A DNA stretch of 64,000 nt, taken from Apostichopus japonicus. Lineage: Eukaryota > Echinodermata > Holothuroidea > Aspidochirotida > Stichopodidae. The translations under genes were made by a program, and so were the position numbers. Shown here one piece after another: positions 9,661-37,743 of the stretch. The DNA is taken from positions 3,992,001 through 4,056,000 of the forward strand of contig NC_092579.1 of assembly GCF_037975245.1 (NCBI RefSeq), in the 5' to 3' direction. Position 1 is the first letter of the stretch. Each line of letters begins with the position of its first letter. The notes below the pieces were generated by a model. The model was not told the DNA's origin. It saw only the letters and a program-made list of their open reading frames with translations, and searched no databases.

Positions 9661-9772
9661 TTCTGAAATCTCTGACAAGTCTTGCACATCTTTCGGTTTC
9701 TTTCTCTGTCAGGGCTTTTTCTAATTTTGTGATGTTTGTGAAGAAATCAGTGAATTTTCGGTCGGCATCTGT
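9661..9772 (-). pseudogene. broken copy of the death-fold gene's last exon
   Basis: On the minus strand this stretch aligns with the 3' half of the terminal coding exon (10396-10697), sharing blocks such as CTTGTCAGAGATTT and CACAAAATT. The segment keeps the frame of ITKLEKALTEKETERC but has a one-base deletion upstream relative to the parent exon (ATTTCTTCACA against ATATCTCCCACA). The 5' half of the exon is missing. It lies about 0.6 kb beyond the parent stop codon and is best read as a decayed tandem exon copy. Confidence 0.75.
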
Positions 9773-10395: not shown

Positions 10396-10697
10396 TTATT
10401 CTGGGCACAATGTTGCTTGAACTACAGGATTTTTCCATCTAAAATCTCTGACAAGTTTGGCACAGTCTTCATTTCCTTGTTCTGTTAAGGCATTTTCCAA
10501 TTTTGTGACATTTGTGGGAGATATCAGTGAACTTTTGGTCAGCTTCTCTAACAAAAGAGTTCCTGGCGTTTTGTGCTTCTTGATATCAGTAATTCCTTCT
10601 TCAGGAAGTTGGAAAATATTTGCCAGCAGGGTAGATTGGTCTACATCAAGATGTTCTGATAAGTTCTGCTTTAGCTGATCAAAAGATTTGATGATGG
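10396..10697 (-). CDS. terminal exon: C-terminal death-fold domain
   Basis: Encodes 100 codons ending in TAA (10398-10396). The pattern is that of a six-helix death fold: LANIFQLPEEGITDIKKHK, then TPGTLLLEKLTKSSLISPTN, then LENALTEQGNEDCAKLVRDF. The middle Leu-Leu-x-x-Leu helix and the final basic/Leu-Val helix are DED-like. It follows the second UPA, the usual place of the death domain in UNC5 and PIDD. A broken copy lies just downstream at 9661-9772. Confidence 0.75.
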
Positions 10698-13600
10698 CTG
10701 TAAGGTTGTAAGAGAATGAAATTTCGACTCTACATAAAGTGAATTAAACTAATCCTGTTTTAGGGAAATAATATCCAGAAACGTGAGACAACATAGATGT
10801 GTTTCTTACACTCAGGGGCAAAATAAACCTGAAAGCTCAGAGTTTTCAATGAGACTAAAAAGGAACTCTGATTTAACTCACAGAATACATCTTTAAAGCA
10901 GGTGACTGAATTTCATTAATTGTTGTTTTCCACTGCAATATGACTTGAATACAGTATCAATACTCAGTCTAAGTGTGTTGCTTTGGTATCGAAACTGATG
11001 TTTAAAACCAAAGCAAACACCAATACTTAACATACTTTAGAACTGCAATCCTTTTATATGAGATGTGTACATGTACACTTTTTTCTTACATCAACATTTT
11101 ACATACTGCCGACAATTCCTTACATATGAGATTTGAACACCTGATCCCACTTTGCATAGAGGAGTCCAGGCTGCAGTTGTCATTTCAACTTGTGGACTAT
11201 ATGTAACTATCAGCTATTTGCAATACTTGATATTGAAGAAACTGTTCTAGTTCACAAATCTGGTAGTGAGTACAACATGGTAATGAAACATCTTCAGCTG
11301 CATTAACATGCTAAAATAATTAATTACTCACATTCGGGTAGAATGAGCTGAAATGGAGATGTGATTTGGTCAATGTGTCGTAACTTTTCAATCTGTGAAG
11401 AGGAAACAGAGGAAAGCTTTATGATTGCCCTAGAAAATAAGTTTGTGCATATTTCACCTCTATCAATTAAGAGTATGTCTCCAGAAGCAGTTTAACTAAT
11501 ACTTTAAGATGTGCAAATTAGGACTATTTTCTATACATTTGTGATCTGAAGACAGCTTGTCATAAGATTTTCTTCTGGCATTGTAAAATTATAGTTCAAA
11601 CCTTTATTAATGAAAATCAGTTCATCAACTAAGACCGACAGAGTAGAAAATCAATAGATGATGCCTAAACATATACATAGTGTGGTAAGCCATACATATT
11701 AATATTCATATACTTGTGCACGGCCAAATGAAGAGGATTGTCCATTGACTAATGCTGTAACATAAAAAGGAATGAGTTATCATGTTGAGACAAACTATAA
11801 AAACAGAAAAAACCTCATAAGCATTTATCTATATACTTACATCATATTATCCAAGTACATATGTAAAGCTAATTAGACATACTACTTCAAAGATATCTGA
11901 TTAAGAATTTAATGTTCACTGAATAAAATTCATGATATGCACACAAAAAAAACAGAAAAAACAACACGGTTGATTGTATGAATGTAGTGTGACAAACCTA
12001 ATATGTCAAGTTGGGAAATCATGAAACATTTCGTTCTTGTCATGTGTTAAAACTACTTAAAAGCCATTTCTTGCAATATGTTGAATATTAATGACATGAA
12101 GTTGGAGACATCATGAAAATGTGCTCATTGTGCACCAACATGACCATACCAGTATGAACCAAAGTTCATGTTAAGCCCTGCCCACTCATTACTATTCAAG
12201 AGATGGGAACCAAGAAAAATGGGGCACATCTACTCATCATGGGGCATATATCTCCCAAATATAACATTGATTCAACTTGTGGTTTTTGAGATATCGTATT
12301 TACAAGCTGTTTTTGACAATTTTCCACTCATAAATATTAATGAGGTAACATTGTTGTAGCAAAGAACATGTACATAATATGTAGTTACAGCACCGTACCA
12401 AGTATGAACTAAATCAGACATACTCCTCATATTCAAATCTTTCTTTCTGCTACATTAATTCAAAATCAAGTTACCTGCAACTGAATACTAAGCTGGAAAA
12501 GATTCTTCCTAAACTTCCCATATCTTGCTTCTATTTCCAGATTGAACGTATCTTCGATCCCTTTATACTGAAGATGGAATTCTATCTTGTGTCTGTTCTT
12601 TAACCATATGGTTTCCGTGGCAACATCCTTTGAAAGAGAATAATTAGAAGTTGACATTGAAGTGGTTGAAGTTAATGTGTTAACATTCTAAGGATTACAG
12701 GTTCCAGTCCTGCACAGATGTTTAATCTGTGACCTTGGGCAAGGCACTTATTCCAATCAGCCCCTCTTCACCCAGATGTATACATTTAAACCTACGAGGT
12801 AACTTTCACCGTACTCTGATACCCTCATTGAGTATCATTACAAATTGAGAAGAAAGAGTTTCAATATTACAAATGAAATGTTGATTTGTAATCAATGTAG
12901 TAAAAGAGTTTACAATACAGCAACATATGCTAGCATTATTACATACTACTCAACAGGTGCATAAAACTATTCTTCCAACAAATAGAAATTACCTGTGGAA
13001 CAGGAATTACCTGCTTTCTTTACATGTTGACATAAAATAAATAAGAACATTTGACAGACATTACTAACCACTTTTCTTGGGTTACACTGTGAGGTACTGG
13101 AGTTGGTGCTAACATGTAAAGTTGAAGTCATAGACTTGAGTTGAACAGACACAGGATCATGAATTATGGAACCCTTTTGCTGATAGATTTCTTCATTGAT
13201 AAGGCTCTGTTAAAATAGAAATGAGACAATATTACATTATAATTAATGTATATTTAAACATTACCATAAATGCATACACCCATTGCATTGTCCCATGTAT
13301 GAGCAGGAAGCAATAACAGCTCCCTAGTATGACCCTCTCATTAAAACTGGTGTGGCCTTTAATTGGTAAAACAAGCAGCTACTATAAATATCTGATACAT
13401 GGAGTGCAATAAGGTCTAACTCTCTGTACAGATTTTCTGCCTAATCTCTTGTCTGGCTGATTAACTGGACCAACTAATGTGTTATCAAACACTGAGCTCT
13501 GTTATACAGCACAAGCATGTGACTTGAATCCCCACGTAATGAGGGGAATATAAACTGAAATCAGGGAGCTGTTATTATTATACATTGATTGTCTTCAAGA

Positions 13601-16600
13601 TACATTATCAAAGACCATTCATAGTCTCACGGCTTATGTTCTGAAAAATATAAACTCTTTACTCTAATATTGGACAAGGTGTACGTGTTTACAAATGTGT
13701 CTGTTACAACAATTGTTGTCAGTTGTCAATGACCACAGACCAAAAAATATTGAACATGCAATTTTTGTTTAGGACATCTGGTCAGTGTGTTTTGTCGACT
13801 ACAAGGTTATTTTCGACCATCAATGACCACAGACAGCCTGAACCAGCTAATCTTACATTGAAAAGATTCCACCTTTTGAGTTAAAATGTTGAATTGGAAG
13901 CCACCCGAAGTGTAAGTTGTAATCCATAAGCCCTTGCAGGTTTCTCCCAAATTTGTGGTCACTTAAGTGACGTAAAAATAACTGCTGTTTATTATTATTA
14001 TTAAGTAACTCTGACATCAATTAAGTTTGAATTAAGGCAGATGACTGGAATCTGTGAGATCATTTGCAATACCACTTGAGCTGAAAAAAAATCTACTACT
14101 TACTTTATGTTCCAGTGAGTCATCATTATGAAACCAAAGATGAATTGTCAATTGATCCCCCGATTCAGAAACTCTGTTCACAATTGGTAAGACGCAGACA
14201 CGTTTCAACATCTTGGGTATGAAAGGGACGTGAAGACCAATGAGACATGGTTTCTCAGCTTTAACTGCAAAGTGCTGACTATTCATAGAGCAGCTGAGAT
14301 ATTTCCTTTCTTGGCTCCATTTGATAATTTTATCTGAAGAAGATTTAAAAAACTATTTTGCTAGATAAGTATTTATAACATGGTGAAAGGTAAAACACCA
14401 AGCCTAAAATATACCATAGATGATTTTAAATTGACAGTGTTGTGTTAGAAAATGCAACACTGCTTACAAAGAACATCAAAACAGTACAACATCTTGTTTT
14501 TCACTTAATGTATAATTGCAATGTTGCCAAATAAATTGTGTTGCTAACTACAGCCTGCCATAGCTTGAGGTGCTTTTTCCTCCTTTAATAATCTTGTTTA
14601 TTTATCCCTTAAGGTTGGAACAAATGATTGAGGTCATCAGGTCAATGTACTACTGAGAAGAGAAGGGTTCCTTGAAAAACATGTTGGCTTTGTGATTCCT
14701 TGCCATACAATTTGCTCAAACTTCCACATACCTATCAGACTAAGGTAGAGCAAGTGAGTTAAATTTGTCTATGAACTAAGTGAAAGCCAGGAAAGAAATC
14801 ATGTTATTATATATATATATTATATACATTAGCTTTTATTATGTGTATATTTTCCCTTTTTTCCTACCTATATCAAAGTTTACCAAGCAATAGCAAAAAA
14901 CCACACATTCTCAGCAAAAGTAGGCATTTCATCGGGATATTTGAAGTTTTCTAATACAAAACCTTCAAAACTTAACTATTTTACTACCAAAATCTACTAC
15001 TTTTGGAATTCTGTTTAGAAATTGAAAGTTTAACAGCTGTGTCTGCATGGAATGTAAATGAAATTCATGGAAACTTTTTTGAGTCATTGTGTTAAGAAAT
15101 GTATCAGAGTTTGCCTGCTACATAAAAAGGAGGATACTTGTACATTTTTAATATGGAACCACATACTAAATGTCAATTTACACCATTATGCCCTTGAGGT
15201 CATGGTGTTAATAAGCCAATAGGGGTGACATACAAAAACACACTAACTCATATACACACCTTTGTTGATACAACAAATTTAAGTAACTAAATATAATTAT
15301 CAAAGGAATCAATAAACACAATGCAAAAGAAACAGAAACACACCTGTTTGTAATACACCAGAGTACACATCAAGACCCGTCTGGTCAGCTGGAGTAACAG
15401 CACAGTGTGGAATAATCAAGGTGACAGGCTTGTGTAAGGTAAGGCTCTCAGGACCAAATTTCACAAAAGGGGTCAATCTTAGACTCTTCTTTGAGAAAGG
15501 TTCATTGATGGCAGGTTCAGTAGAAACCCATAGACTAACAATCCTTCCAGTGTGTAGTGCACCAGCTGGTACAAGGAGATTAACACCTGCTATAAACATC
15601 TCTCCTCCACGATGATCAAAGTACTGCTCTTTATAAAGATTGGATCCTGGGAACAAAGGAAGTGTCTCTGGAGGAGAAAAGTAATATATTTCAAGTGAAA
15701 GGAAAGTGATTTTGCCACTTCAATGCTTATTCAATGCATTAACACATTTAATGAAAATAGTCTTTTTAACACAAACTTGTTTCACTTTCTACTTGTAGAA
15801 ACAAAATAATTAAGAATCACAATAAATTTTAATTTTTGACTGAACATCAGATATGAAATAATTGACCTGATTGATGAAAACAGATCTAGAAGAGAATATT
15901 TCGTTGAAAGTAACACGAATTACTTTTATTTCAGGTATCTAGATCATATTCCTATGATGTAGCTATTTTGTGAGTAATTTTCCTAAAATAAATAAAAATA
16001 CTTGTTCTTCCATAAACACTGAAACAGCAAGGGCTTGAAATGTATTCCTAGAGTGTGTTATAACAAGGAGGTAAATTATATCACGTAGAAATATTAAAAG
16101 AAATACCCATGTAGCTAAATACATAGGGTATCTTTACCATGCTCTTCCTTTGCAAGTAGCAATATCCGTCTTCCCAAGTCCAGTTTTCCATTAGACAATT
16201 TCAAGGCTCTTTGGACATCCAGTCTCTTGTAACCCTCTTCTATCAAAATTGTGTAATTTACTGACAATTTTGATTCCCTTTTTGAGATTACTTCCTGTTT
16301 CTTTGGAATTTTTACCTGAAACAATGTTGAAATATTACAATTTGTTTATCAAATCTACATTTTTTTATCATACTTTCATCATGATATTCAACTAATTACT
16401 GCATTTGATTTGGCTTCAGTGAATATTCTACACAGACTTTCTGTACACTTGATCTCTACAAACATAACTTTATGTAAGCAGAAATAATCTAAACCATTCT
16501 AAGATCCTGATGTTATGCAAAGTAACCATTCTTTGGCTTCAAGCTTAAAGTTTCAAAGTCTTGACAAGTTATTGCAAAGCACAAACCATTTTGTTAATTT

Positions 16601-19600
16601 CTTTTCCCCCTTCGTTTTCCTTTCCATTCTTCTCCTGTAACGTATCGATGTACTCCAGCACCATTCTTGCCACCTTGTTAAAGTCAATAGCTTTCAATCC
16701 TTCATACATTCCAATCATTCTGTTTGGCATGATGAGCTCTCTTTCATCCAATATTTTCATCAGCATCTTTCCAGATTTTGCTGCTTCCTGAACTGTATCC
16801 TTTTCTGCTGGCTTCAGATCAAAATACATGCCTAGCTTTGCGCAATGTTGTTTATCCAGAAGCTTTGCAATGTCTCCTCTCAACTTTTCATATTTGTGTA
16901 AGCCTGAAAGTGAGGACATAGCATCCACTTGACATTCGAAGGAATATAACAAAGGCTAGATATCACATGTAGAAATAAGAGCACCTGAAGCACATGCCAA
17001 TGGAGTGGCAGTTATGAACAATGAGCAATGTTCACAGCTTACATGCACAAGTACACAACAGGCCCTCAAGAAGCATGCAACCTGTGTGGAGAACGTTGGT
17101 ATGCAAATCAACCTCTGGTGCATGCACACATTAATTATTGGTTTTATACTGTCCACAACTAGCATACAACTTTTCTACTTTAAGCCCTTGTCTTGTGCAT
17201 AAATTCTGGTCTCATATACAGCTTCACCTTCATGGTTGCTTTGAGCTACCAAGTTGGAAGTGAGCATACTAACTAAAAATGAAAGCGTGCAAATTGAACT
17301 TAGAAATGTTTTGGGTTCAGCAGTATGATTAAATTTCTTGCCATCAAAAATGTTTATGTTGATGAAATATTTCCCAATAAACAATGTTGATATAAGTAAC
17401 ATTTGGTGTCTACTGCTAAAACCAAATGCTATTACCTTTTCACCTCTTCTTAGACACTCACCTGGGTCCATGTACTCTACGTCTGCTTATTTTTTCATCT
17501 TCACTAATACACACTTACCTGGTGTATGTCTACGAATAATAAGCATTCATTTTTCTCTAGCAACTGCACTTAGATGCAGGTCAGGGTGGACATCTAAAAC
17601 TAGCTAAGTCCACCCAATTGTTCCACTTCCACATAAAAACTCACCTGGGTGCAGAATTTTCTGGCTTTCTGGAGATAAGAGAATGTCTTTCACCTAAAGG
17701 AAAACAAAAAAACAAAATTATATGACTAATGAAAACTTTAAATGTAAGAATATTTAACATACAATTATGCAGGCTATCTACCTTACCCCTGTGAATGGTT
17801 AGATTTAAAGTAGGAATGTAATGCAGAAACATATGGCAGTAACAGACATGGAACAACACATAATAAACGTGTGAAATCCAAAAAGAAAAAGGAATGCTGA
17901 TGACACTTATTTATGCAGTATTCATTCATTTATACCTAAGATACCCCACAAAACAAAGTTACTTAGCAGAGAAATGAGCAGATGGGAGAAGATGCCGCTT
18001 AATATTATGTAATGAAGAGACATATGAGAAGACAAATAGGTCAACAGATATAACTCACCTTCGATTGGAGGATAAGGGCTGTCTGGTTCATTTCATGTTG
18101 TGTTACTTTTAACTTCACATCAACCATGTCAGTGTCTCCATCTTTGTCCCTTGTAAGTCTAAACTGATGAGAAACTCTACTGGCAGCACAGAGGTAATCA
18201 ATGTCTACATGCTAATGGATAAAAGATAATGAAATCAATGTACTTTGGATGCATAGAATGATTGTTAAGTATTTAAAGAAAAGGTGCCACATATAAGAAG
18301 TAAGAATTAAGGAAAAGCTGGTAAGGAACCAAGACATGTGGTCATGTACAAATCCTCACATTTCATGGGCAGCTGGTGAAGATTATACTTTCCTATTATA
18401 TTAAGAATTCCATGACATAATTTAGGTTTAGATCATTACCAGGGGTAGCAACTCTACAGAAACATATTCGAGTCATAGGTATTCATGTCATTCTGGATAA
18501 ACACAGACTTATATTTATCAATTTCTGTTTGATGAGTGTTTAGAGATTTTCTAGGCAGACATGTAATTGTCTCAATCGTTCACGCTCTCAGGACAGCCAC
18601 TTAATCAAAATCCCAATCCAAGAACTGAGAGTGTGCCACAATAACTGAACACTGCCTCAGATACAAATGGAGGTGAATTATATACACCAAAAGTAAAGCC
18701 ACGGTGAATGGAGCTATTCGCAATACCGTACGAAAGAACATAGGACCAAACTTAACTTCCTTATAAATTCACAACCCAGGAATACCAACTCACACAAGAT
18801 CCTGCTCAGCAACACTGCACAGCAGAAGGTTGCCTATATTGTGGTTCCTGCTGGGATATTGAACCAGAAACCACATAGTTGTAGGGCGACACTCTAACTG
18901 TTACACAATTTAATCCACTTCAAGTAACCAATCCTTAACTACAAGTCTTGTAATGTTAAAAGAAAAACTTTAATAGCATTGGCAATTACAAACCTTTGTT
19001 GATTCTTCCTTTGTTAGATGGTAACCATCACCAGGTGATGACATGATCAGATCAATGTAAGAAACATGGTCTCTGACGTCATTCAATGTCCGGGTAATTT
19101 GAAATGTTGTATAGTTTCCTAGACACAGTTTGGGATGGTGGTCCTCTAACAGCAACTAAACCATAAGAACAAGAAGATTTAAATTGCAAAGAAACACACA
19201 GAGAGTTGATTATACAATTTGTTGTGCCTTCACTCTGTACAGAGAGATCAATACTGCTATAGCAAGTAACATCGTCTTTGTTTCCATTATTTGCTCACAT
19301 TACCAACGTTGCTTGTTTCTTCGGATCCTCCCACCCTCTTAATCCTTGTTGTGAGCCACAATAAAAATTTGGGCCATCTGCATATTTTGGAGGTGAACCA
19401 CATATTTTGTAAGAAAATGAAATTTTAACCGAAGAAATAAATAATAATGTTAGTAAAATACCATGATCCATTCTCTATGAGACTATCAGCATTCTTCCTT
19501 TATGACTATGGGGATACTGTCAGTTTCATTTCAGTACAAATACTTTTGATAGAAACATGTTTTAAGTTAACGTCAAGTTTACATTTTTTCATTTATAATT

Positions 19601-25600: not shown

Positions 25601-28600
25601 TGTGATATGTCTAGAGTTTCACGTTCTCCAAGCAATGTTTCATCCTCTATAACAGAAGCGGAGTAAGCCTGCAAATAAACAAAACAAGAAAGATATGTTA
25701 CTTGGTGTACTGACACATTAATGAAATAACCTCAGTTTTCATGTCTGTCACCTGTCAAGTTACACCAATTCAGTCTTTAGCTGATAAAAGCAACTGATTT
25801 TAGTATAGGTGAATGTACTCATTACTCACTTCACACTATTTGTAATCAAATGTAGCTTGACTTTGATCATTTTTTTGAACTCCTTGAACTATTTCTGTAA
25901 AGCTCAAGATTATGTTGTTACTTGTAACACCTTTAACAGTGGAGCCTTCGATCATAAATTCAACACAGTAATGGTCTCGTCACAATATTTTGACACTTCT
26001 TTTGCTACTAATGATATACTGGCTACAGATACACACTGTTCTATATTCATAATTCACTTACTATATACTTAATCATATTTACCAATTGTTGCTGATTCAA
26101 GGCTTCCCTAGTCTGCTTCAGGACCTCTTGTAAAGCCATGGATTCTTTGGCATATTCCAGTTGAGACTTCACAAGTTCATCTTTTGTAGCTCTCAGACTT
26201 GATTTAGCTTCTTCATGCTCCTGTCGTGTAAACAACACAGTAAATGAGACAAGAAGGATGCACCTCCCAGTAGTTACTTGCAAAAAATTACAGTTTATAC
26301 CAACATTGAAGTTGCCAGTGTCTGAAGGGAAACATTTTTCAAGTAGACACATTTCTTCACACTTATTTTTAGGCAGGCTGCAATGATAACCTTTTGACCT
26401 TTACTTGAGGGTGTGACTATTGCAAAATGACTACCTTGCTCAGAGAAAATCACATGTTCACAACAGTTTAGTGCTGAAAATTGTGACCTAACCTTCACAC
26501 AAAAAAACTTCCAGGAACTGTGGAACTACTGTTCTAGAAAAAGGAATGTTAGGCCTATCACATTGAAGGACAGACGATCAATTATATCAATTAATTACAT
26601 TTTTCAATGTCTTAAGCTTGTTTTCAGTTGTATTCAATCCATCTCTGAAGTATTGTCTTTCTTCCTCTGTTGTCTTTAGTCTTCCAGTCAGCCGTTGTCT
26701 TTCCTCCTCTGATTTCTTCAGTCTTCCAGTCAGCTGTTGTCTTTCTTCCTCTGTTGCCTTCAGTGCATCTTTGAATTGCTGTCTTTCCTGCTCTGTTGTC
26801 TTAAGTCTTGCACTCAGCTGTTCTCTTTCCTCCTCTGTTGTCTTTAGTCTTGCACTCAGCTGTTGTCTGTCCTCCTCTGATGTCTTTAGTCTTCCAGTCA
26901 GCTGTTGTCGTTCCTCCTCTGGTTTCTTTAGTCTTCCAGTCAGCTGTTGTCTTTCCTCATCTGTTGTCTTTAGTCTTCCAGTGAGCTGTTGTTTGTTTTC
27001 CTCTGTTGCCTTCAGTGCATCTTTGAATTGATGTCTTTCCTGCTCTGTTGTCTTAAGTCTTGCATTCAGCTGTTCTCTTTCCTCCTCTGTTGTCTTTAGT
27101 CTTCCAGTCAGCTGTTGTCTGTCCTCCTCTGATGTCTTTAGTCTTCCAGTCAGCTGTTGTCTTTCCTCCTCTGTTGTCTTTAGTCTTCCAGTCAGCTGTT
27201 GTCCTTCTTCCTCTGTTGCCTTCAATGCATCTTTGAACTGCTGTCTTTCCTCCTCTGTTGTCTTTAGTCTTCTAGTCAGCTGTTGTCTTTCTTCCTCTGT
27301 TGCCTTCAATGCATCTTTGAATTGTTGTCTTTCCTCTTCTGTTGTCTTCAGTCTTCCAGTAAGCTGTTGTCTTTCTTCCTCTGTTGCCTTCAATGTATCT
27401 TTGAATTGTTGTCTTTCCTCCTCTGTTGTCTTCAGTCTTCCAGTCAGCTGTTGTCCTTCTTCCTCTGTTGCCTTCAATGTATCTTTGAATTGTTGTCTTT
27501 CCTCCTCTGTTGTCTTCAGTCTTCCAGTCAGCTGTTGCCTTTCCTCCTCTGTTGTCTTTAGTCTTCCAGTCAGCTGTTGTCTGTCCTCCTCTGATGTCTT
27601 TAGTCTTCCAGTCAGCTGTTGTCTTTCCTCCTCTGTTGTCTTTAGTCTTCCAGTCAGCTGTTGTCCTTCTTCCTCTGTTGCCTTCAATGCATCTTTGAAC
27701 TGCTGTCTTTCCTCCTCTGTTGTCTTTAGTCTTCTAGTCAGCTGTTGTCTTTCTTCCTCTGTTGCCTTCAATGCATCTTTGAATTGTTGTCTTTCCTCTT
27801 CTGTTGTCTTCAGTCTTCCAGTAAGCTGTTGTCTTTCTTCCTCTGTTGCCTTCAATGTATCTTTGAATTGTTGTCTTTCCTCCTCTGTTGTCTTCAGTCT
27901 TCCAGTCAGCTGTTGTCTTTCTTCCTCTGTTGCCTTCAGTGCATCTTTGAATTGTTGTCTTTCCTCCTCTGTTGTCTTTAGTCTTCCAGTCAGCTGTTGT
28001 CTTTCCTCCTCTGTTGTCTTAAGTCTTCGAATCAGCTGTTGTCTTTCTTCCTCTGTTGCCTTCAATGTATATTTGAATTGTTGTCTTTCCTCCTCTGTTG
28101 TCTTCAGTCTTCCAGTCAGCTGTTGTCTTTCTTCCTCTGTTGCCTTCAATGTATCTTTAAATTGCTGTCTTTCCTCCTCTGTTTTCTTTAGTCTTCCAGT
28201 CAGCTGTTGTCTTTCTTCCTCTGTTGCCTTCAATGTATCTTTGAATTGTTGTCTTTCCTCCTCTGTTGTCTTTAGTCTTCCAGTCAGCTGTTGTCTTTCT
28301 TCGTCTGTTGCCTTCAGTGCATCTTTGAATTGTTGTCTTTCCTCCTCTGTTGTCATTAGTCTTCCAGTCAGCTGTTGTCTTTCTTCCTCTGTTGCCTTCA
28401 ATGCATCTTTGAATTGTTGTCTTTCCTCCTCTGTTGTCTTTAGTCTTCCAGTCAGCTGTTGTCTTTCCTCCTCTGTTGTCTTAAGTCTTCCAATCAGCTG
28501 TTGTCTTTCTTCCTGTGTTGCCTTCACTGTATCTTTCAATTGTTGTCTTTCCTCCTCTGTTGTCTTCAGTCTTCCAGTCAGCTGTTGTTTTTCATCTTCT

Positions 28601-31600
28601 GATTCAATTAATTTGTGAGAGAGTTCCTGCCTTTTGCCTTCTAATGCCTGTAGTTGATCCTTTAGTTCTTTCTTGGTAAACTTTGAATCTGAAACAAACA
28701 TATACTGTAAGATGCAAATATGGATAAAGATCGTCTTCCACCCAAGAGATATATTTATGTAAATAAACTCAGTTCAATATATCATAATTTATGCAGTAAA
28801 AACTTCCAGGAAAATATTGTGACAAACTTGCCATAACTTAGTGAGTTCCCATTTGGGTCCAACTTTAGCATGTTATTTGAGGTGACCATGCAAATCTCTC
28901 ACAAGGTGTTGACTTTGGCCCTGCTTCTGAGCAATTGAACAAAGTCATGACAAGCCCCTTTAATGAGTCTTATGTATCAAGGATATTAAATTACAAAATT
29001 TCAAAAGGAGAGGAAATTCCAAATTTTACCAATCTTGTCTGATATACCTCAAATGGAAACTTTTGAGTATATCCCATTAGTTACAGTCTTATAGAAATAT
29101 TTGACTTTAATGTAAGACCTTGACATTGAATGAACAAGTTTTCTTGCCAACTTATTTATCAGATTATTTGTATCAAACGGTGGTATTAATGGAGAATCCT
29201 TCTTCTATCAACCATGGGTTAATTAACTTAAGTTAATACAGTACAATGGTATTACCTCAAATCGCATTTGTTGACTTTGTAGGGCAACACATTTGCATGT
29301 TTTGCGATTCATAACATATTTAACTTGTTAAGCTCTGTGATATAAACATACCTTGAGCTTGTTGGAAGACAGTCAATACTGCGACCAATTTACTCAGTCC
29401 TTTTTCAGAGCATGCTGTCATTAAATAGTTGATATCATCAAAAGAAACCTTCCCTGCCTCTCTGAGATGGTGGACAAGAGATGAAAAGGGTGTGTCACTC
29501 TTAATAATGTCCTTTGATTCCTTAGCTGGAACTTTAAGGTAGTCAAGTAGCTTCTGACAGTCATCTTTCTCAATCAATGACTCTGTGTGGATCAGGCAGT
29601 TATCAAAGGTAAAGATGTCACTCTGTAACAAAAAGACAACGAAAAGAAAATCAAATAAATATACTGGTTGTAGCAGACTATAAAATAGGTTGAGGCATTG
29701 AAACAGCACACATTCAAAGGGAGGGATTAATTTTAATATGAAGGTGTGAATTCTGTGCTGTGATTCACCTTAGTCCCTTCAACTACAATATTACATATTT
29801 ATTTGAGATAAATTAAAAGAACTTAATAGTGGAGAATTGGTTTGATTGATTTTTAGGACTATGCATTCTTTTATACATGAAGCTGTATCAGGCAGATTAT
29901 TGTAGATTGAATCTTGATGCCACCACCTTATAATTACTGTATATATAGTTTAATTGCCTTAACATTTTATTCTCCAAATTTAACCAATAAACACTACATT
30001 GTTACCCATGTTTCTGTGTGAAAGTAATCTTTGACTTAGAACTACTTAAAGTGTCTTTAATTCTGGGCAATGTAGGTGGTCAATAATACAGCTAAACTAC
30101 ATGTGGTGCAGCTCAAATGCTTGAAGAATCAAAGTCCATATGCATTGCACTGTGAAGTATTTTCAAGATTGGTGTATATACACTCAATCATACAGTGCAG
30201 AGCTACTACACTATGAGCTACAGTATACACAGCTTCATGACAAAGAATTCATGTGAAACATTTAATTATTGTGATATGTGCAGTTATCAACTAAAATGCT
30301 ATTGAACCAAGTCTCCTGGGTTACTTTGAGGTTAGACATAATTTAGTAGTTTATGGTGTGGCCAAAATGACATGTAAAAACAAGAGCATAAGGGCACTGT
30401 GGTCCCTTGCGTAGGCATATATGACATAATATTATCATAGCAAGATGGGGCTCAAATAGTCCAAGTAATTGTGGTCCTACATGTACCCATTAAGTAACCA
30501 ACACTATAGCCAACACTTTTGTGATCACAAATTGTGATCGGATTTTTGATTGGAAGGCACTTTTGAGATCTGAATATGGCGTTGAAAATGTAAGAAGATA
30601 AGGTCACCTACAAGCAGGTCAACAGATATGATAACATTGGTGACCTCAGATCACATGACTGTTAAGTTTGAAAATGTTCCACCACCCCATTCACAACTTG
30701 TCCCAAAATAGCAATCAGTGTCAGACCTTGGCAATGGGAGTTAATTGCATTAAATGTCTAAACATTAATTTTGAACTTGTATAACTTCACAAAGGTCACC
30801 CGGGGTCAACCCATTGACATTTTTGATCGATGAGACCTAAATAGAGCATCAAAACTGTAGAAATTCAAACATTTTTCTTTGCCCATTTTCTCCCCCCAAA
30901 ATACTATATATTTTTTTATTAATTGACCTTTGGTGTCCTTGAATCACATGACCGTTAAGTTTGAAAACATTCCTCTATACCATTTGCAATTTGTCCCAAA
31001 ATATCAACCTTGTCACACCTTGGCACTGGGAGTTATTGCATTAAATGTCTGAAAATTAACTTTGACCTTCTATAACTTTACACACTAAGGTCACCCAGGT
31101 GTCAACCCATTGACATTTTTGATCGAAAGGTACCTTTGATATCCAAATCTAGCATCAAAACCAAACATTTTCTTTTTCGCCCGTTTTCTCCCAAACTAAG
31201 CACATTTTTTCTAATTAATGTGACCTTTGGACCTTGGTCTCAAATGAAGTTTGATCTCCTGATTCCAAATATCAACACGACAAGTCTGTACAGCCATCCT
31301 AACTTTGACACCATATAAATTCGCACACAAAGGTCACACAGGGGTCAACCTATAGATATTTATAATCGGAAGGTACCTTTGACATCTGAAAATAGCATCA
31401 AAACTATTAAAATCCCCAAAACACTTAAAGGTCACCAGAAGTCAAATTGAGGTCAAAGGTCACCCAGATGTGGGTCGACAATTGGATTACATTGAAGCAA
31501 CTCCCAACCCTACGGACAATTCGTTATAAAGTTATTGCAAATATACTTGTTTCTTAACATTAATTGACCTTTGGTGACATGACCATTTAATTTCAAAATG

Positions 31601-34600
31601 TTTTCCTAACCAATTCACAACTTGTCCCAAAGTATTAACCTTTTCGCACATTGGCACTGGGAGTTATTGCAGTTCTAGTATTTTGGGTTTTTGGACCATA
31701 ACTGACCTTTGTGGGCACCAAAAACAACAGGGTTCATCTACTCACTATGGTCCACCCACACACCAGGTTTGATCATGATCAGTCAATCCCTTGTTGAGTT
31801 ATCTTGCATACAAGCTAAAGCGTCACACACACACACACCCATGTTTGTGTTTCATTCAGACCGAGGACCCCATTGTATTTTCCATTTTTCAAATCCATGT
31901 ACCGTAACATTAACAATACCCCATACAATAGAATTCTTCCGAGGACGTGGTGATTCTTTAGAAATCACAACCGAGGACCTGAAATTCTTTTGTTCAAGTC
32001 CTCGGTCAGATAGCAAAACAAACGCACACACGCACACACGCATCCATGCAAACCTGAATACATAGGTTCCTTTGCTTTAAGCAAGGAACCATAAAGCCTT
32101 TTACAGGAAGACCATTATTCTTACAGTAACACTGGTTGACATGTGGTAATGCTTTCTCATGCATGGGTAGCAATGATTAGGGAGTTCGTAACAACTCCCT
32201 GAAATGATCATGTTAAATCCATGTGCATAGCTATTGCATACATTACACTGTGTGCTTGGTGACAGATAATGAGTGGGAATCTTTACCACAGTTAATTAGT
32301 GTATTGGGTATTAAGACAATTAAGCAGGATACTGTGTATCATCATTTACACACAGTAATGTCTATTTCGTTACTGTCACAAACTTGACAGAAATACACTG
32401 CAGTAATACATTACTTTCTAAGTTTTTCAAACACAGAAATCAACATAATTTTCAAAACAGTTAATGTTTTGCCTCATTTCTCCTGCTTATTCCCATATCA
32501 CCTACATTATGAGTGTAGTACAGCTAAATTGTACCTACTTAGCATTGTCAGGAATTAATCCAAAATCTGTTACTTATTGTTTCTTATAAAGACTATACAC
32601 TGTGCATTCTTCATATTTATGGAAATCACAAGGCCATCAGTGAAATTAACCACTTGAAGAGAACTGACAAGAAGACTGTCAACTGACTCAATGCAATCCC
32701 TATTAAAGTAAAGCCTGTACTTAGCTACAACTTTCTCTCCTCAGAAGTAATGAAAAATGATTTCAATAGCTTTGTGAATTTTGCAGCCTTTACTCTGTTG
32801 ACAATGTAAAAATAGTACAGTAAGGCTAAGGTCACATTTTCCCTTCTTTTTCTGCTTTTTTGACTAATTTGGACCAAAACAAACCACCCCTACATCCCAA
32901 AACAGAAGCAAGCTTGTGTTATACCATTTTATCAAGACTTAAATACTGTGATCAAATCAAGGTATCACCACTGCAGTATGTGCACTAGTGCAAAACTAAG
33001 CACTATGGCCTTAAATTAAGATAAAACATATTGCCCTTAAATTTTCTTGAATTTTACCTCATTGCAAGGAAAATTGCACCTGTTGTATACTTAACAATAG
33101 TTTGCATTGATTTTTGTCAAATTTGAATATTTTAGCAGACTTTGACAGCCAAAATTAATGAAAAAGGAACTACACTTTTTTAGTCTGAGCTGTTTCGCCA
33201 TGAACCATTCATCTTGCATCAATTTGCAAAGAAGTTTTGACCTAGAATACAAATCATTACCTAAAACATAGCACTTATTTTTATTTGATTTTTTCCAGCA
33301 CTTGAGTGCAACAAGCTTCCAATGGCCTAAATCTTTTATAAAATATTGTGCTAACTTTTCCACCATTTTGATCTCCCTCTTAACGAACAAGTAATAGTTG
33401 TGTTCTTAATAAAATTCTGCATTCACTAAACCAAATTTGTAGAAATTACCAGCTCTTAAGCTCAAAAAAATAAGAAGAAATATTTTCAAAAGTTTGTGTG
33501 TTGCTCTATTATTGGAAAGTGCTACAAGCTACCAATGGCCTAATATTTTCATAAAAATTTGCCCTTACTTTTCCACCATTTTGATCTCCCTCTTAACAAA
33601 CAAGTATTTAGTTGTGTTTTTAATAAAATTCTGCATTCACTAGTACCAAATTTTTATAGCATTAGCAGCTTGTTAGCTCAGAAAATAAGAAGAAAATTTT
33701 TCCAAAATGTGTGTGTTGCTCTAATACTGGAAAGTGCAACAAGCATCCAATGGCCTAAACTTTTCATAAAATTTTGCCCTTACTTTTCCACCAATTTGAT
33801 CTCCCTCTTAACAAACAAGTAATAGTTGTGTTCTTAATAAAATTCCGCATTCACTATTACCAAATTTGTAGAAATTAGCAGCTTGTAAGCTCAGAAAATA
33901 AGAAGAAATATTTTCCAAGTTTTGTGTGCTGTTCTAATATTGGAAAGTCCTACAAGCTACCAATAGCCTATTTAAAAAAAAAAAAATTTCTCTAAATTTT
34001 CCACCATTTTGATCTCCCTCTTAACAAACAAGTAATAGTTGTGTTCTTAATAAAATTCTGCATTCACTAGTACCAAATTTTTATAAATTAGCAGCTCGTT
34101 AGCTCAGAAAATAAGAAGAAATATTTTCCAAATTTTGTGTGTTGCTCTAATATTATAAAGTGCTACAAGCTACCAATGGCCTAAACTTTTCATAAAATTT
34201 TGCGCTTACTTTTCCACCATTTTGATCTCCCTTTGAACAAACAAGTAAAAGTTGTGTTCTTAATAAAATTCCGCATTCACTAGAAACAGTTTTGTCTACA
34301 TTTGAAGCTCGAAGACTGAGAAAATAAGGAAAACCAATTTTACTTTAACATTGACAGAACAAATCACTTCCATGACAACCTTACCAAAACCAACATATCC
34401 CAAGGAAAAAAATGTCCTTATTTTTCTTTAAATTTTGCAAGGTAGATCTCTAAACATCTAAAAGTGTCTTCTTCACACTTGTTCGCATTGAATGAAACCA
34501 AATTTGTTGATCTTCATTCAAAGGATTGTTTGAACAAAAGTGATAAAAAGTCCTAATTTTTACCAAAGGCCTATATATCCTGTATTAGTACTTACTGTGT

Positions 34601-37600
34601 GATATTCATAGACTTTTCCAGTTGTCTGGGTCACCAAAAACAATCTGTTTATGTTATTATTGATCCTGATTCTCATGAAATTATCAGGAACTTTAAGAGA
34701 AGCCAAGATATGACCCCCAGAAATGGACGAATGACCCCCAGAGATGGAAGAATGACCCCCAGATAAAGAGTAAACAACAACTTGTCTACCCTCACCACCA
34801 AGCCATAATATAAATATTAATCCTTTCTCTTCACTGACTGCTATACTATGGGCATATCTGTACTGTTTGTGTGTATATTTCTGTTCTATTTCTCCCTCAC
34901 TATTATACATTAAAGCTCTCCTACCATTGAATGTACAGATAAACAGTTTATCATTACTAACTGCTATATCAATGGGACAGTCTAATCCTACTAATCCTGT
35001 TAAGGTGATTGTCTTCTTTATTCTCAATTCTCTCGAATCTAAGACAATCACCTCATTGGAATCTAAACCGACATAGACTAAACCATCTCTGGTTGTCATA
35101 CACCAGGCGTTATCGTTAAACTTCCCTTGATTGACCAGACCGCCATTACTACTATCGTACAACGCTATCGTATTCTTCGTCGTCGTTAAAAACAGACGAT
35201 CATCCAGTAAGCAAACAGTCCGCCATGATGAACCAAACTCGGTAAATTCCTCAGAATAATAAGGTTCTGACGTCAATAATAACGGTTTTTCTGGAGAATC
35301 AGGATCAAATTGTAACATAAACAGATCGATAAAGCTGCAGTTTGTATTGTCATTATATCCAGCGACAGCCAAACGGCCTGTGTCTAGCACGTCCACCTCC
35401 GACACCTTGTAACCGTCTTGTACAGTGAATCGTGGTATCGTTGTATACACTCTGTGTGTGTGGAAGGCAAAAAGTGTAAAGTTAGGTCAAGGTTGGAAGG
35501 TTGTATCCATGGTAACGAAGAATTTAGAGTGAATTTTGATCGAAGGAATGATGAACAACATATCTCAGACTGCGAAGTAGCCTAGGCAGATCTTGCAAAC
35601 GGTACTGAATTAATTTATGCATGGAATTACAATGTTGTGACCACATTGGAAGATGTCCAGAAAAAATTAATTCAAGAAAGCTAACTTTGTTTGTGAAAGG
35701 CTCAGGTAATCATTGAATGATGGCGCTATTCAAGAAAGCCAACTTTGGTCTAAAGTTTTCACGGGGTAACTTCAGAGAGAAATTTAGTCTTGAGTTCTTT
35801 GACATATTAAGTCCAAGAAAAACAAAGGACAAAGTTGACTGCTAGTAATAATGTTTTCTATAGCTACGCAGCTTTCCACTTATATTAACCTCCTGACCTT
35901 ATACTTACCTTCAAAATATGCTTAAACTCTGGAATGCTCGGGTCTAGAGATCGATGCATCGGCGCCTCAATGCGATCCTAAGTCTTTATGTTAATCCATT
36001 GCTTAGAAATTCTAATAACTCCACCAAAACATGTTCTTTTATCTGCCTAGAAGCAAAACACATCCTTGGATGACGTTTAACACCTTTTTACACGACAAAT
36101 TTGCAATGCATCTTAATATATTGCATTGGAGGCAATAAAAGTCTTCACAGTGAATCTTGTGTTGTATCAGAGAAACTAATCTAACGGTATTTGTATGAGA
36201 CTAAATACGGTCCAGTCACTTCAAAGTGATGAACTTCATTTGTATAAAGGACCATTGCTTTAAAATGAAAATTGTTATAGACTTCCAACATGGGCTGATA
36301 GCAGAGTATTTTAAAAGTCTACAAAACCTTAGGTTTATTTTGCATTTAAAGTAACCCTTTATGTCTACCAGGTTAAGCTTTGACATTGTGTCATATCCAT
36401 GGGCGATTGACCCGATGCGGGGAATCCGAGGATTCAAGTTCCTCCTGTTTTGTAACAGAAACGGTAAGAAGTGCCCCGTTTCGTAGATTAGAAGTGCCAA
36501 TTTTTGACAAGTTCCGTTCTTTGTTATTCTTTGTTATTCTTTGTTATTTAAAACGAGTCATTTCGTTTAGACATTTAGGAAAAGTGTAATCAAGAAGTGC
36601 CTTTTTTGCTGATAAATTGAACTAATCAATTGAACGGTCCTATATCGTTGAAAATAATGGAAATAATGGAATTCGTGGCATAGAATGCAGAAAGGAATTT
36701 ATTTTATTGGCGTTTTGAGATGGCTTTGTACTTTACCTTCTCAATTCAACGCCACCGTGATGTCCTACCAATCTTAGGAGTTTTTTACCACGCCCATCCC
36801 ACCCCTACCCCACCCCTTCGTCACTGAACCCTTTCCTCTATTTCAAAAGTTATCTGAGGAACGATCAGCCCGGTTTGTGAAAGATTTTCAGTATTCAGCA
36901 TTGCTTGTATATAGATGAATGTAAAATAAACAAATAATAAATATTTTTCTTATACTGTCATGTATAATCGCCTGGTATAAACACATTTGAATCTTTTATA
37001 AAACAAGAAAACAATAGTAAATCTTACGAGGTTTTTGTGGCGGCCATTTTGAAATGTGCTTAATTAGTTCTGAGAAATTATTTTTATGCAGCGGGAGTCC
37101 TGATCTGCGGATAAAATTAGAAAAGTCTTAAGAAACAAATACTACTTTCTAAAATATATTCTTATCGAGGAATATAGAAAAAAAAACAGAGATCAGTGGA
37201 ACGGAAAGAAGACTTCTTTTGGGTGAATGCTGTGGCCTTTATGATCCTTAATCAACAATCTTGCACTTAATGATGTGTGAAATGATGTTTTTGGTCATCA
37301 AGAAAGGTTCCCTGGACATACTCTTTAATTTCAGCTATCTTTAGTTCATGCTGGATTGAGAAAAAGACGACGAAATCGTGACAAAATAGTTTAAATTTCG
37401 TAAAATTAATGAATTGATATATACGATGGTGAAAAGAGGAAATTTTGTTTAAAGAAATTGATATTTTATTTAAACTGTCCCGTATAAGCATGTTGTACAA
37501 TTGAGATATACTTCCCTATACTGGAATGCTGCTAATAAAAATTCATAAATGTTTTCTTTTTACTTACAATAATAGACGTCTCTGTAAGATAGGTGCAGGT

Positions 37601-37743
37601 GAGGAACAGATAATATTCTTCAATAGGTCTTGAATATAACCTTGTTCTTGATATAATTCGATTTTCTTATGCTGAGTTGTTGGCAAGTCAACAATGTGTG
37701 AAGTGATAACACAAATTTCAAACAGATGGCCCTTTGAGATCAT
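10396..37743 (-). CDS. propeller/death-fold/coiled-coil/double ZU5-UPA scaffold protein, 20 exons
   Basis: Coding exons in transcript order: 37743-37568, 35451-34596, 29622-29352, 28688-26599, 26220-26083, 25668-25584, 21430-21107, 20707-20234, 20046-19820, 19155-18994, 18211-18059, 17693-17645, 16903-16587, 16315-16138, 15667-15344, 14333-14104, 13206-13069, 12627-12475, 11392-11332, 10697-10396. They total 6,708 nt (2,235 residues), and every junction has GT/AG ends with matching phase. The start ATG has an in-frame TAA 18 nt upstream. Domain order (approximate residues): N-segment 1-58, propeller 59-344, death-fold 345-434, coiled coil 435-1177, death-fold 1206-1313, ZU5-UPA 1314-1668, death-fold 1669-1774, UBA-like 1775-1833, ZU5-UPA 1834-2115, death-fold 2136-2235. 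No signal peptide or membrane segment is seen, so it is probably cytoplasmic. Known ZU5-UPA-death proteins (UNC5, PIDD) act in apoptosis and signalling; a similar role is inferred. One gene rather than two is supported by phase, but the 5-kb second intron leaves room for doubt. Confidence 0.8.
11332..14333 (-). CDS. second UPA region, four exons
   Basis: Exons 14333-14104, 13206-13069, 12627-12475 and 11392-11332 follow the second ZU5. The first reads from DKIIKWSQERKYLS through SQHFAVKAEKPC to LTIHLWFHNDDSLEHK. Later exons contain beta-rich segments such as IEFHLQYKGIEDTFNLEIEA. The exon series parallels the first UPA (227/162/153 nt against 230/138/153 nt). The HFA triplet sits where PIDD-type proteins carry the HFS self-cleavage motif. 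The last 61-nt exon links to the final death fold. Assignment as UPA rests on position and resemblance to the first copy. Confidence 0.65.
12120..12330. repeat. dispersed repeat, copy B (intron 18)
   Basis: Same repeat as 9776-10010, in the same orientation, inside an intron of the death-fold gene. A short further stretch about 12370-12425 (AGTATGAACTAAATCAGACAT) matches the flank of copy A near 9790-9815. Confidence 0.65.
12690..12800 (+). mobile_element. CORE-SINE-like fragment
   Basis: A box-B-like GGTTCCAGTCC is followed by CTGTGACCTTGGGCAAG, which matches the conserved central word of CORE-SINEs such as vertebrate MIR. The tail is AT-rich and not well defined. It is old and truncated. 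Confidence 0.5.
13858..14003 (+). mobile_element. SINE 3' body, 5'-truncated copy
   Basis: Shares TTGAAAAGATTCCA, AGTTAAAATGTTGAATTGGA, GTAAGTTGTAATCCA and GGTTTCTCCCAAAT, in order and with the same spacing, with the SINE at 56868-57144, and ends in the same (TTA)n tail. The tRNA-like head is absent. It lies in the intron between coding exons 16 and 17 of the death-fold gene. Confidence 0.75.
15344..15667 (-). CDS. exon 15: second ZU5 domain
   Basis: A 324-nt phase 1-1 exon. It has the ZU5 hallmarks: a GGEMFIAGVNLLVPAGAL opening strand pair (compare G-x-L-x-I-P-x-G-A-L), SLRLTPFVKFGPESLTLHK and the closing VTLIIPHCAV, which matches the LTLHHCA strand of UNC5. ZU5 domains pack against UPA and death domains and mediate assembly. 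The exon sits between the UBA-like exon and the second UPA. Confidence 0.85.
16138..16315 (-). CDS. exon 14: UBA-like three-helix segment
   Basis: A 178-nt exon with the stretch ILIEEGYKRLDVQRALKLS followed by GKLDLGRRILLLAKEE. This has the UBA layout: a first helix ending in a (M/E)-G-(F/Y) loop, a second helix with D-V-x-R-A-L, and a third with A/G-R-x-I-L-L. UBA domains usually bind ubiquitin. The match is by eye over about 40 residues. Confidence 0.55.
16587..16903 (-). CDS. exon 13: third death-fold domain
   Basis: A 317-nt exon encoding about 106 residues that follow the first UPA. Helical pattern: KYEKLRGDIAKLLDKQHC, LGMYFDLKPAEKDTV, MLMKILDERELIMPN and NKVARMVLEYIDTLQEK, ending in a charged Lys/Glu/Asn tail. 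The L-(M/L)-K-I-L-(D/E)-E-R-x-L-I helix and loop resemble DEDs. The donor is the weak GTTTGT, as in the 18994 exon. Confidence 0.7.
17462..17482 (-). CDS. possible 21-nt cassette microexon
   Basis: Between exons 12 and 13 the minus strand has an AG, then 21 nt, then a strong GTGAGT donor. In phase 1 the 21 nt add seven residues (DVEYMDP and part of the next codon) without shifting frame, and mimic the Pro end of exon 12. The upstream polypyrimidine tract is poor, so use is doubtful. Confidence 0.2.
17645..19155 (-). CDS. first UPA region, three exons
   Basis: Exons 19155-18994, 18211-18059 and 17693-17645. They carry ITRTLNDVRDHVSYIDLIM, then a beta-rich pair (RVSHQFRLTRDKDGD and VDVKLKVTQHEMNQTALIL), and a short linker ending Pro at a phase-1 donor. 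The pattern follows the UNC5 UPA, whose last strands precede the death domain. Two further sequences resembling this 3' junction lie just downstream (near 17519 and 17462). Confidence 0.65.
19820..20707 (-). CDS. exons 8-9: first ZU5 domain and start of UPA
   Basis: Exon 20707-20234 starts with an acidic, Ser-rich linker (DPDDESTSSQGSDEREDD) and then has ZU5: GGTISIMGVHLTIPEGALSS, RMTPLINLEPEGLTLDKPA and LTIPHSAI. Exon 20046-19820 carries WTEEKSFDWKLDPEKISL and ILSYVFVNLV, which aligns with the UNC5 stretch ending L-S-T-Y-A-L-V. Two donors 9 nt apart (20234 or 20225) are both in phase and would add or drop three residues. The site equivalent to PIDD's HFS is not conserved. Confidence 0.85.
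21107..21430 (-). CDS. exon 7: second death-fold domain
   Basis: A 324-nt exon. It shares with the terminal exon the pattern LATLFRLPPAETDMLRRV, then TPGITLINFMKTRNIINMYD, then LQKGLVHIQLNRTNEYHLA, so the two are homologous death folds of one subtype. It follows a short linker exon (25668-25584) and precedes the acidic linker of the first ZU5. Confidence 0.75.
21675..21900. repeat. two GT microsatellites in intron 6
   Basis: GT runs of 8-10 units at about 21681-21698 and 21876-21898 lie about 190 bp apart, next to GGGCGTATG and TATGACGCCC, which are inverted relative to each other. No gene function is evident. Confidence 0.7.
22060..22700. repeat. dispersed repeat array with AGGTCA direct repeats
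   Basis: At least three diverged units share: 'CCTATTGTTTTGG', 'AGGTCAAAGGTCA', a gap, then 'GTATCTCCAGAAC' or 'AACTCCAGATGG'. Two DR1-type sites lie at 22185-22197 (AGGTCAAAGGTCA) and 22337-22349 (AGGTCAAAGTTCA). Located in intron 6 of the death-fold gene; inverted relatives lie at 24400-25200. Confidence 0.65.
23840..24190. repeat. 49-bp minisatellite, seven copies
   Basis: The unit TTAGTTTGTTTGTATTAGAT, then AGTGATCACATGACTAC and a short variable spacer. Repeat starts are spaced 63, 49, 48, 49, 49 and 48 bp apart. Located in intron 6 of the death-fold gene. Confidence 0.9.
24400..25200. repeat. dispersed repeat, reverse orientation copies
   Basis: Several units contain TGACCCCAAATGACCTTTTACC, a run matching 'CCACAAACAATAGG', then 'GAGATA(C/T)CATGTTTACAAG'. 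They are the reverse complement of units at 22060-22700 and resemble 8930-9280. Intron 6. Confidence 0.65.
25584..26220 (-). CDS. exons 5-6: end of coiled coil and linker
   Basis: Exon 26220-26083 continues the coiled coil without the 14-residue repeat (EHEEAKSSLRATKDEL, then KESMALQEVLKQTREALN). Exon 25668-25584 is a polar linker of 28 residues (SVIEDETLLGERETLDI). Phases 0-0 and 0-1 fit the neighbours. This non-repetitive coil probably reflects the ancestral state of the segment. Confidence 0.75.
26599..28688 (-). CDS. exon 4: 2.1-kb coding minisatellite, 14-residue coiled-coil repeats
   Basis: One exon encodes 696 residues, of which about 640 are some 46 copies of a 14-residue unit, consensus TEEERQQLTGRLKT alternating with TEEERQQFKDALKA. 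Fourteen residues equal two heptads, so each 42-bp unit keeps the coiled-coil register. The flanks (KKELKDQLQALEGKRQEL at the start, YFRDGLNTTENKLKTLKN at the end) are non-repetitive. A block of about 340 bp at 27110-27450 recurs at 27572-27912, exactly 462 bp (11 units) away. The long plus-strand frames opposite are a by-product of the 42-bp period. Confidence 0.9.
29352..29622 (-). CDS. exon 3: first death-fold domain
   Basis: Ninety residues: LIHTESLIEKDDCQKLLDYL, ESKDIIKSDTPFSSLVHHL, REAGKVSFDDINYLMTAC and KGLSKLVAVLTVFQQAQ. The middle L-V-x-x-L-R-E-A-G-x-V-(S/D)-x-x-(D/N) run and the final L-(S/D)-K-L-V-x-V-L helix fit a death-effector domain. It starts in phase 0 after TTACAG and ends in phase 1 before GTATGT, matching the coiled-coil exon. 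Confidence 0.75.
30530..31830. repeat. dispersed repeat units, intron 2
   Basis: At least three tandem-like units of about 300-450 bp. Each carries GACCTT(T)GGTG, ATCACATGACCGTTAAGTTT, AACTTGTCCCAAAATA, TGGCACTGGGAGTTATTGC, a phrase around TGATCGGAAGGTACCTTTGA, and AGCATCAAAACT. A DR1 element AGGTCAAAGGTCA lies at 31450-31462. A single unit also occurs at 8180-8380. Confidence 0.75.
33290..34330. repeat. 214-bp satellite, five copies
   Basis: The marker AACAAACAAGTAATAGTTGT occurs at 33382, 33595, 33810, 34023 and 34236, so the period is 213-215 bp. Units also share CCACCATTTTGATCTCCCTC and CTCAGAAAATAAGAAGAAA. Located in intron 2 of the death-fold gene, just downstream of the propeller exon. 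Confidence 0.9.
34596..35451 (-). CDS. exon 2: beta-propeller domain
   Basis: A single 856-nt exon (phase 2 to phase 0) encodes about 285 residues. It has repeated blades of NHL/WD type: GLVYVGLDSNEVIVLDSREL, CPIDIAVSNDKLFICTFNG, YAHSIAVSEEKGLIFILW and NNNINRLFLVTQTTGKVYEY. About six blades of 45-50 residues are likely. A short direct repeat (SGGHSSI, three times) lies in the loop at about 34700-34760. The acceptor is CACACAG; there is no start ATG in the exon, so it must be joined to an upstream exon. Confidence 0.75.
35452..37567 (-). other. intron 1 of the death-fold gene
   Basis: Between the start exon and the propeller exon. It contains a small direct repeat of TTCTTTGTTA at about 36520-36548 and no clear exon. 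A weak possible exon lies near 37330-37362 (minus, HELKIAEIKE) with a GTATGT donor; it would also end in phase 2, so it could be an alternative, but it has no start codon. Confidence 0.45.
37568..37743 (-). CDS. exon 1 of the death-fold gene with start codon
   Basis: ATG at 37743-37741, with TAA in frame 18 nt upstream. It encodes 58 codons plus two bases, MISKGHLFEICVITSHIVDL onward, with a predicted helical stretch IELYQEQGYIQDLLKNII. The donor GTAAGT in phase 2 matches the one-base opening of the propeller exon. A TATA box lies about 155 bp upstream. No domain is recognised. Confidence 0.7.

Follow-up and report, generated by a model that had tools for sequence, protein, structure and literature searches.

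What kind of protein is encoded by a gene that joins a propeller, a long coil and two ZU5-UPA modules with four death folds, and what might such a protein sense? We examined this question in a 64,000-nucleotide stretch of the genome of the sea cucumber Apostichopus japonicus (contig NC_092579.1, positions 3,992,001 to 4,056,000; hereafter the window), where an initial annotation had placed such a gene on the minus strand and had read it as a signaling scaffold. We find that the predicted architecture recurs in two sea cucumbers and that one face of the propeller is variable among paralogs.

Predicted domain order and its occurrence in sea cucumbers

The gene model, rebuilt from the window, consists of 20 minus-strand exons (37743 to 10396) that join into 6,708 nt encoding 2,235 residues. 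All 19 introns are GT-AG, there are no internal stops, and the phases agree, as had been claimed initially; a predicted protein in the databases (P0001) has the same length. From its translation, the architecture shown is an NHL-type propeller, DED, coil, DED-ZU5-UPA-DED, UBA-like segment and ZU5-UPA-DED (Table 1), an order for which we found no description in the open-access literature.

Three protein searches retrieved 72 proteins; candidates were limited to a set length range, and in two of the searches scoring was confined to those with the most words in common (7981 and 7998 candidates). All ten domains occurred in order in 26 of the 72, four from Holothuria leucospilota and, counting isoforms, 22 from A. 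japonicus, which rejects a single odd gene and bears out the order within one protein; P0005, P0020 and P0039 have incomplete propellers. At least one domain was missing in the remaining 46, some of which are short or truncated predictions. With residues 1206-2235 as query, 38 proteins were recovered, 36 from A. japonicus and two from H. leucospilota. Among matches with a named organism, within the length range and the candidates scored, no relative came from outside sea cucumbers. A midpoint-rooted tree of the DED2-DED3 region (49 rows; 34 A. japonicus, 15 Holothuria) set the two apart with 100/100 support on both sides, and the family therefore expanded separately in each species. Judged from the predicted proteins, domain parts are exchanged among relatives: P0060 reads propeller-DED-coil-Death, and the second module of P0032 and P0033 has a Death domain and another kind of ZU5.

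The individual domains were identified with differing strength. Exon 2 has an NHL-type propeller fold with a sub-threshold Pfam NHL match, in agreement with the propeller initially proposed as the putative sensor. The four death folds of the initial annotation were recovered as folds, DED1 (in the model of P0058), DED2 and DED4 being helical bundles in predicted structures, and not as death domains: the closest known fold is the DED, and all four are of DED type, most clearly DED3. Profile comparison tied DED1 to DED2-4 and paired the fold of exon 20 with DED3 at a probability of 97.5%. The DED typically bears an RxDL motif in its last helix, which was not seen in the window DEDs when the translation was inspected by eye. 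In Pfam, scanned for the window protein with ten window exons, exon 20 matched DED weakly and Death not at all; no DED match exceeded the cut-off of 35.9 bits (best in the window, 14.9 bits; best of 20 relatives, E 0.00039). Against solved structures, with E allowed up to 1, the DED1-DED4 profiles matched no known protein's DED, and the sole row named for a DED was chain 7lxc ('DED1ch', E 0.32).

Both ZU5 domains exceeded the Pfam cut-off, and the ZU5-UPA fold was found with UNC5B as the best structural match, obtained with module 2; the two modules claimed initially are thus upheld. Because the C-terminal structure model is weak overall (mean predicted local distance difference test score 62.9, predicted template modeling score 0.32), the UPA of module 1 was assigned mainly by alignment with module 2. 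The UBA-like segment noted earlier between the modules matched CBL UBA chains as a family profile, and Pfam gave no match on exon 14 alone. The long coil, likewise recognized at the outset, is a coding repeat whose units differ at codon positions 1, 2 and 3 by 79, 67 and 129 changes, a slight indication that coding is constrained. A coiled coil is suggested at most, since the 3.5-residue peak is a harmonic of the 14-residue repeat.

The start of the model probably needs correction. An exon at 37047-37028 precedes a GT donor and, joined to exon 2, yields MAATKTSVYTTIPRFT and a 2,183-residue protein. Paralogs start with MATTKTSV..TIPRFT or near variants. In all 31 retrieved proteins with an I-x-RF motif in the first 40 residues (30 from A. 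japonicus), this motif lies at most 15 residues from the start, and 21 of them begin M-x-x-x-[KNR]-T-S-V. None of the 31 uses the exon 1 proposed initially (37743), which is used by P0001. From these starts, 37047-37028 is more likely to be exon 1, and the earlier choice would be either an alternative first exon or an error.

P0001 matches the window model at 100% over residues 1-1208. As it has both the initially proposed exon 1 and the long intron from 34596 to 29622, a predicted protein with these two features is already in the databases. Its residues 1209-2235 are encoded by a further copy of exons 7-20 that lies outside the window, with 86-96% identity to the window model in the later domains, and reflect either a second C-terminal cassette reached by splicing or an annotation that mixes two near-identical copies. 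The window model could be a chimera that fuses two genes, one for propeller-DED-coil and one for ZU5-UPA-DED; alternatively, exons 1-6 could normally pair with another C-terminal copy. This would fit the link in P0001 between exons 1-6 and a different copy of exons 7-20, as well as P0058 and P0059, which stop after DED1 and the coil. We regard this explanation as quite unlikely, given that exon phases agree throughout the model and that two species together supply 26 proteins with the ten-domain order; because all 26 are predictions, a common annotation error keeps a small probability.

Variability of one propeller face

We computed column entropy over 30 propellers, from the window and 29 retrieved proteins, with strands assigned by DSSP; d-a and b-c loops were taken as the top face and a-b and c-d loops as the bottom. 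With DSSP strands alone, mean entropy was 1.26 bits in top loops, 0.55 in bottom loops and 0.62 in strands. None of 276 circular rotations reached this contrast at flank 0 or flank 2, and a comparison loop by loop gave a one-sided p of 0.0004. When two hand-made strand splits were added, 0, 1 and 1 of 276 rotations reached it at flanks 0, 1 and 2, and the 30 most variable positions comprised 24 in top loops ±2, two in bottom loops and four in strands. Variable positions are often paired about a steadier residue (e.g., 121/123, 204/206 and 262/264). The separately expanded Holothuria set gave a similar contrast: for its eight propellers, 3, 0 and 0 of 249 rotations reached it at flanks 0, 1 and 2, and at flank 2 the 30 most variable positions fell 21 in top loops, five in bottom loops and four in strands.

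In the propellers of the fungal proteins HET-D and HET-E (HNWD), positive selection is reported for residues of the d-a loop and the b-c turn, on the interaction face, and the selected residues form pairs flanking a conserved residue (PMC1805685). The window propeller is alike in both the loops that diversify and the pairing about a fixed residue. HET-D and HET-E have a WD40 propeller and a NACHT core, whereas ours is NHL-type; because the propeller types differ, the likeness is convergence at most. A face that varies among paralogs argues for recognition of diverse ligands and not for one fixed apoptosome-like complex.

A short repeat, GGHSSIS, lies in a propeller loop (window 34700-34765, minus strand), and its copy number differs among paralogs.

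Probable cytosolic sensing and the alternatives

The window gene probably encodes a cytosolic sensor and scaffold whose variable propeller face would bind foreign or altered-self ligands, and its architecture supports the signaling scaffold envisaged by the initial annotation. Binding, differing by copy and aided by the long coil and DED1, would cluster copies. The ZU5-UPA-death-domain region of UNC5B adopts a closed form. In the window protein, the ZU5-UPA modules would then open or self-associate, as reported for NLRP1 and CARD8, where UPA drives self-association (PMC7794386). DEDs would nucleate filaments, and these would draw in DED adaptors together with proteases of the caspase-8 type, leading to cell death or inflammatory signaling. 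Through the UBA, the protein may attach to targets that bear ubiquitin. We infer these steps beyond the anatomy and the variability.

The name carried by many relatives points elsewhere. 'Netrin receptor UNC5' labels from NCBI or UniRef are attached to P0037-P0045 and P0052 from Holothuria and to P0053, P0054 and P0055 from A. japonicus, and a 2017 A. japonicus genome paper counted 234 'netrin receptor' genes and took them as a nervous-system expansion (PMC5638244). That the window gene is an UNC5-type receptor for axon guidance, as proposed there for the family, agrees with these labels and with UNC5B as best structural match of the ZU5-UPA part. Immunoglobulin (Ig) and TSP1 domains, however, were unmatched in ten window exons and five relatives and did not appear in the family listing for 20 full relatives, P0001 included (25 of 26 families). 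Hydropathy, a crude membrane test, indicated no membrane span in the window model: its peak 19-residue value was 1.33, and the cut-off for membrane spans is 1.6. DEDs moreover replace the death domain, and the propeller sits N-terminally. We therefore reject the netrin-receptor identity of the window gene, for which neither ectodomain nor membrane span was found, and consider that reading extremely improbable; cytosolic non-self sensing would be the better one. Family members, including some named as nerve-guidance receptors, may be internal sensors of non-self.

A PIDD-like scaffold, cut by itself at the ZU5 domains and building one fixed complex such as the PIDDosome, would also place ZU5-UPA beside a death-superfamily fold. 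The ZU5-UPA boundary of PIDD and of NLRP1/CARD8 is reported to self-cut at HF/S or SF/S (PMC3210808), and F-S is kept at the aligned column in P0038 (C-F-S and Q-F-S), P0033 (N-F-S) and P0032 (H-F-S); from this motif, some relatives may self-cleave. The window modules read I-L-S and K-P-C at this column. Since neither module retains F-S, the window copy is probably not self-cleaving, and we reject PIDD-type self-cleavage for it. Leucine-rich repeats and the death domain were unmatched in the ten window exons, and one propeller face varies among paralogs, which disfavors one fixed complex. We see little chance for a PIDD-like scaffold of this kind, and as regards the PIDDosome-like complex suggested initially, a cleaved scaffold is unlikely. 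Near residue 1329 of P0032, the replaced second module combines H-F-S with a Death domain, making this protein a candidate self-cleaving relative.

Several observations weigh against a cytosolic sensor with a ligand-binding face. In the entropy profile, two top loops, 12-20 and 77-84, vary little (0.57 and 0.70 bits), a bottom loop, 147-151, does vary (1.10 bits), and at flank 0 the 30 most variable Holothuria positions fall 15 in top loops, two in bottom loops and 13 in strands. DED3 has diverged as much as the propeller (76.8 vs 77.1% mean identity). The measure is protein entropy across paralogs rather than dN/dS, it would also rise if constraint were relaxed on one face, loop labels were assigned after the profile had been seen, and the face was assigned by strand order and not by coordinates. 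As to location, hydropathy exceeds 1.6 in 17 of the 72 relatives; 13 of those stretches lie inside folded domains, and P0046, P0056, P0063 and P0064 have a hydrophobic stretch outside them. P0063 and P0064, short propeller-only predictions, end in a near-identical 19-residue stretch (hydropathy 2.54 and 2.29) that either anchors the protein in a membrane or is an artefact of read-through. NACHT, absent from the ten window exons and from the listed families of the 20 relatives, is joined to the ZU5-UPA-DED part in predicted P0050 (Holothuria) and P0056 (A. japonicus), which may be annotation fusions.

The same protein might instead be an ankyrin-like internal scaffold for structure or trafficking, with a propeller that binds endogenous partners and copies that drifted after duplication. 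Plain drift does not predict that one propeller face varies in both lineages, which expanded separately; drift with weak constraint on that face would. We judge this scaffold unlikely, if less so than the netrin-receptor or PIDD-like readings.

Compared with known systems, the window protein shares ZU5-UPA with the cytoplasmic region of UNC5B (PDB 3g5b) and differs in that no ectodomain or membrane span was found, the fold after UPA is a DED, there are two modules, and a propeller, coil and UBA-like segment are added; in place of the C-terminal death domain of UNC5, it ends in a DED-type fold. Like PIDD1, it combines a putative sensor, ZU5-UPA and a C-terminal death-superfamily fold (PMC3210808), with the propeller in place of leucine-rich repeats, ZU5-UPA twice, DED for death domain and HF/S lost. 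Relative to the FIIND of NLRP1 and CARD8, the window copy is without the SF/S motif and without NACHT in its ten exons, and has the propeller in addition. Expansions of DED, TRADD-N and propeller proteins are already known in other marine animals: the DED-TRADD-N-WD40 families of amphioxus and oyster are likewise lineage-specific and pair a DED with a variable β-propeller (PMC8195603). Those families contain TRADD-N and are reported with a C-terminal propeller; ZU5-UPA fusions receive only a brief mention in that source (PMC8195603). TRIM-NHL proteins (Brat, TRIM2, LIN-41) differ in that RING and B-box are absent among the listed families of the 20 relatives and the propeller is N-terminal here.

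More tentatively, the sensor encoded in the window may belong to a large and still diversifying cytosolic repertoire, in which a hypervariable NHL-type propeller face senses and DEDs on tandem ZU5-UPA modules signal. This would be a NACHT-free counterpart of the fungal propeller receptors for allorecognition, concealed at least partly behind the published 'netrin receptor' expansion, with C-terminal cassettes exchanged and perhaps chosen by splicing; we hold it possible rather than probable. If true, the known designs of death-fold signaling would be extended by a ZU5-UPA-DED arrangement that occurs twice per protein and by sensing through a propeller with one variable face, and the same propeller face would seem to have been diversified independently for recognition in fungi and animals.

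Exon coordinates and other features of the window

Table 1. Exons of the predicted gene, with both candidates for exon 1 (window positions).
Feature	Positions	Strand	Content and evidence
Exon 1, preferred	37028..37047	-	MAATKTS; donor phase 2, in phase with exon 2
Exon 1 of the initial annotation, alternative or mistaken	37568..37743	-	Open, phase 2 donor; also in P0001
Exon 2	34596..35451	-	NHL-type β-propeller; Pfam NHL 19.3 bits, cut-off 20
Exon 3	29352..29622	-	DED1; helical bundle in P0058 model; profile links to DED2-4
Exon 4	26599..28688	-	Coil; coding repeat, 49 units of 14 residues
Exon 5	26083..26220	-	Coil end
Exon 6	25584..25668	-	Linker; last exon exactly common to window model and P0001
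Exon 7	21107..21430	-	DED2; helical bundle, profile links; no Pfam match
Exon 8	20234..20707	-	Module 1 ZU5; Pfam 37.1 bits, cut-off 21
Exon 9	19820..20046	-	Module 1 UPA, first part; aligned with module 2
Exon 10	18994..19155	-	Module 1 UPA; alignment with module 2
Exon 11	18059..18211	-	Module 1 UPA; alignment with module 2
Exon 12	17645..17693	-	Module 1 UPA end; alignment with module 2
Exon 13	16587..16903	-	DED3
Exon 14	16138..16315	-	UBA-like segment; CBL UBA chains matched by profile, E 0.001-0.006
Exon 15	15344..15667	-	Module 2 ZU5; Pfam 52.1 bits, cut-off 21; UNC5B structural match
Exon 16	14104..14333	-	Module 2 UPA, first part
Exon 17	13069..13206	-	Module 2 UPA
Exon 18	12475..12627	-	Module 2 UPA
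Exon 19	11332..11392	-	Module 2 UPA end
Exon 20	10396..10697	-	DED4 and stop; helical bundle; Pfam DED 13.7 bits, cut-off 35.9; profile links

Rfam and tRNA scans of the 64-kb window gave no match. Downstream of the gene, a lone fragment at 9641-9739 (minus strand) resembles the exon for DED4 over 33 residues (64%) and is perhaps a trace of an earlier duplication, to judge from this similarity. The sequence GGTCATTTGGGGTCA, part of dispersed repeats, recurs at 24826 in intron 6 and at 9142 downstream of the gene (minus strand). On the plus strand, two open reading frames at 54900-56255 resemble parts of a lysine methyltransferase, with a likeness to EEF2KMT/FAM86; the second has no Pfam match, and the first matches Methyltransf_16 at 24.7 bits (cut-off 21).

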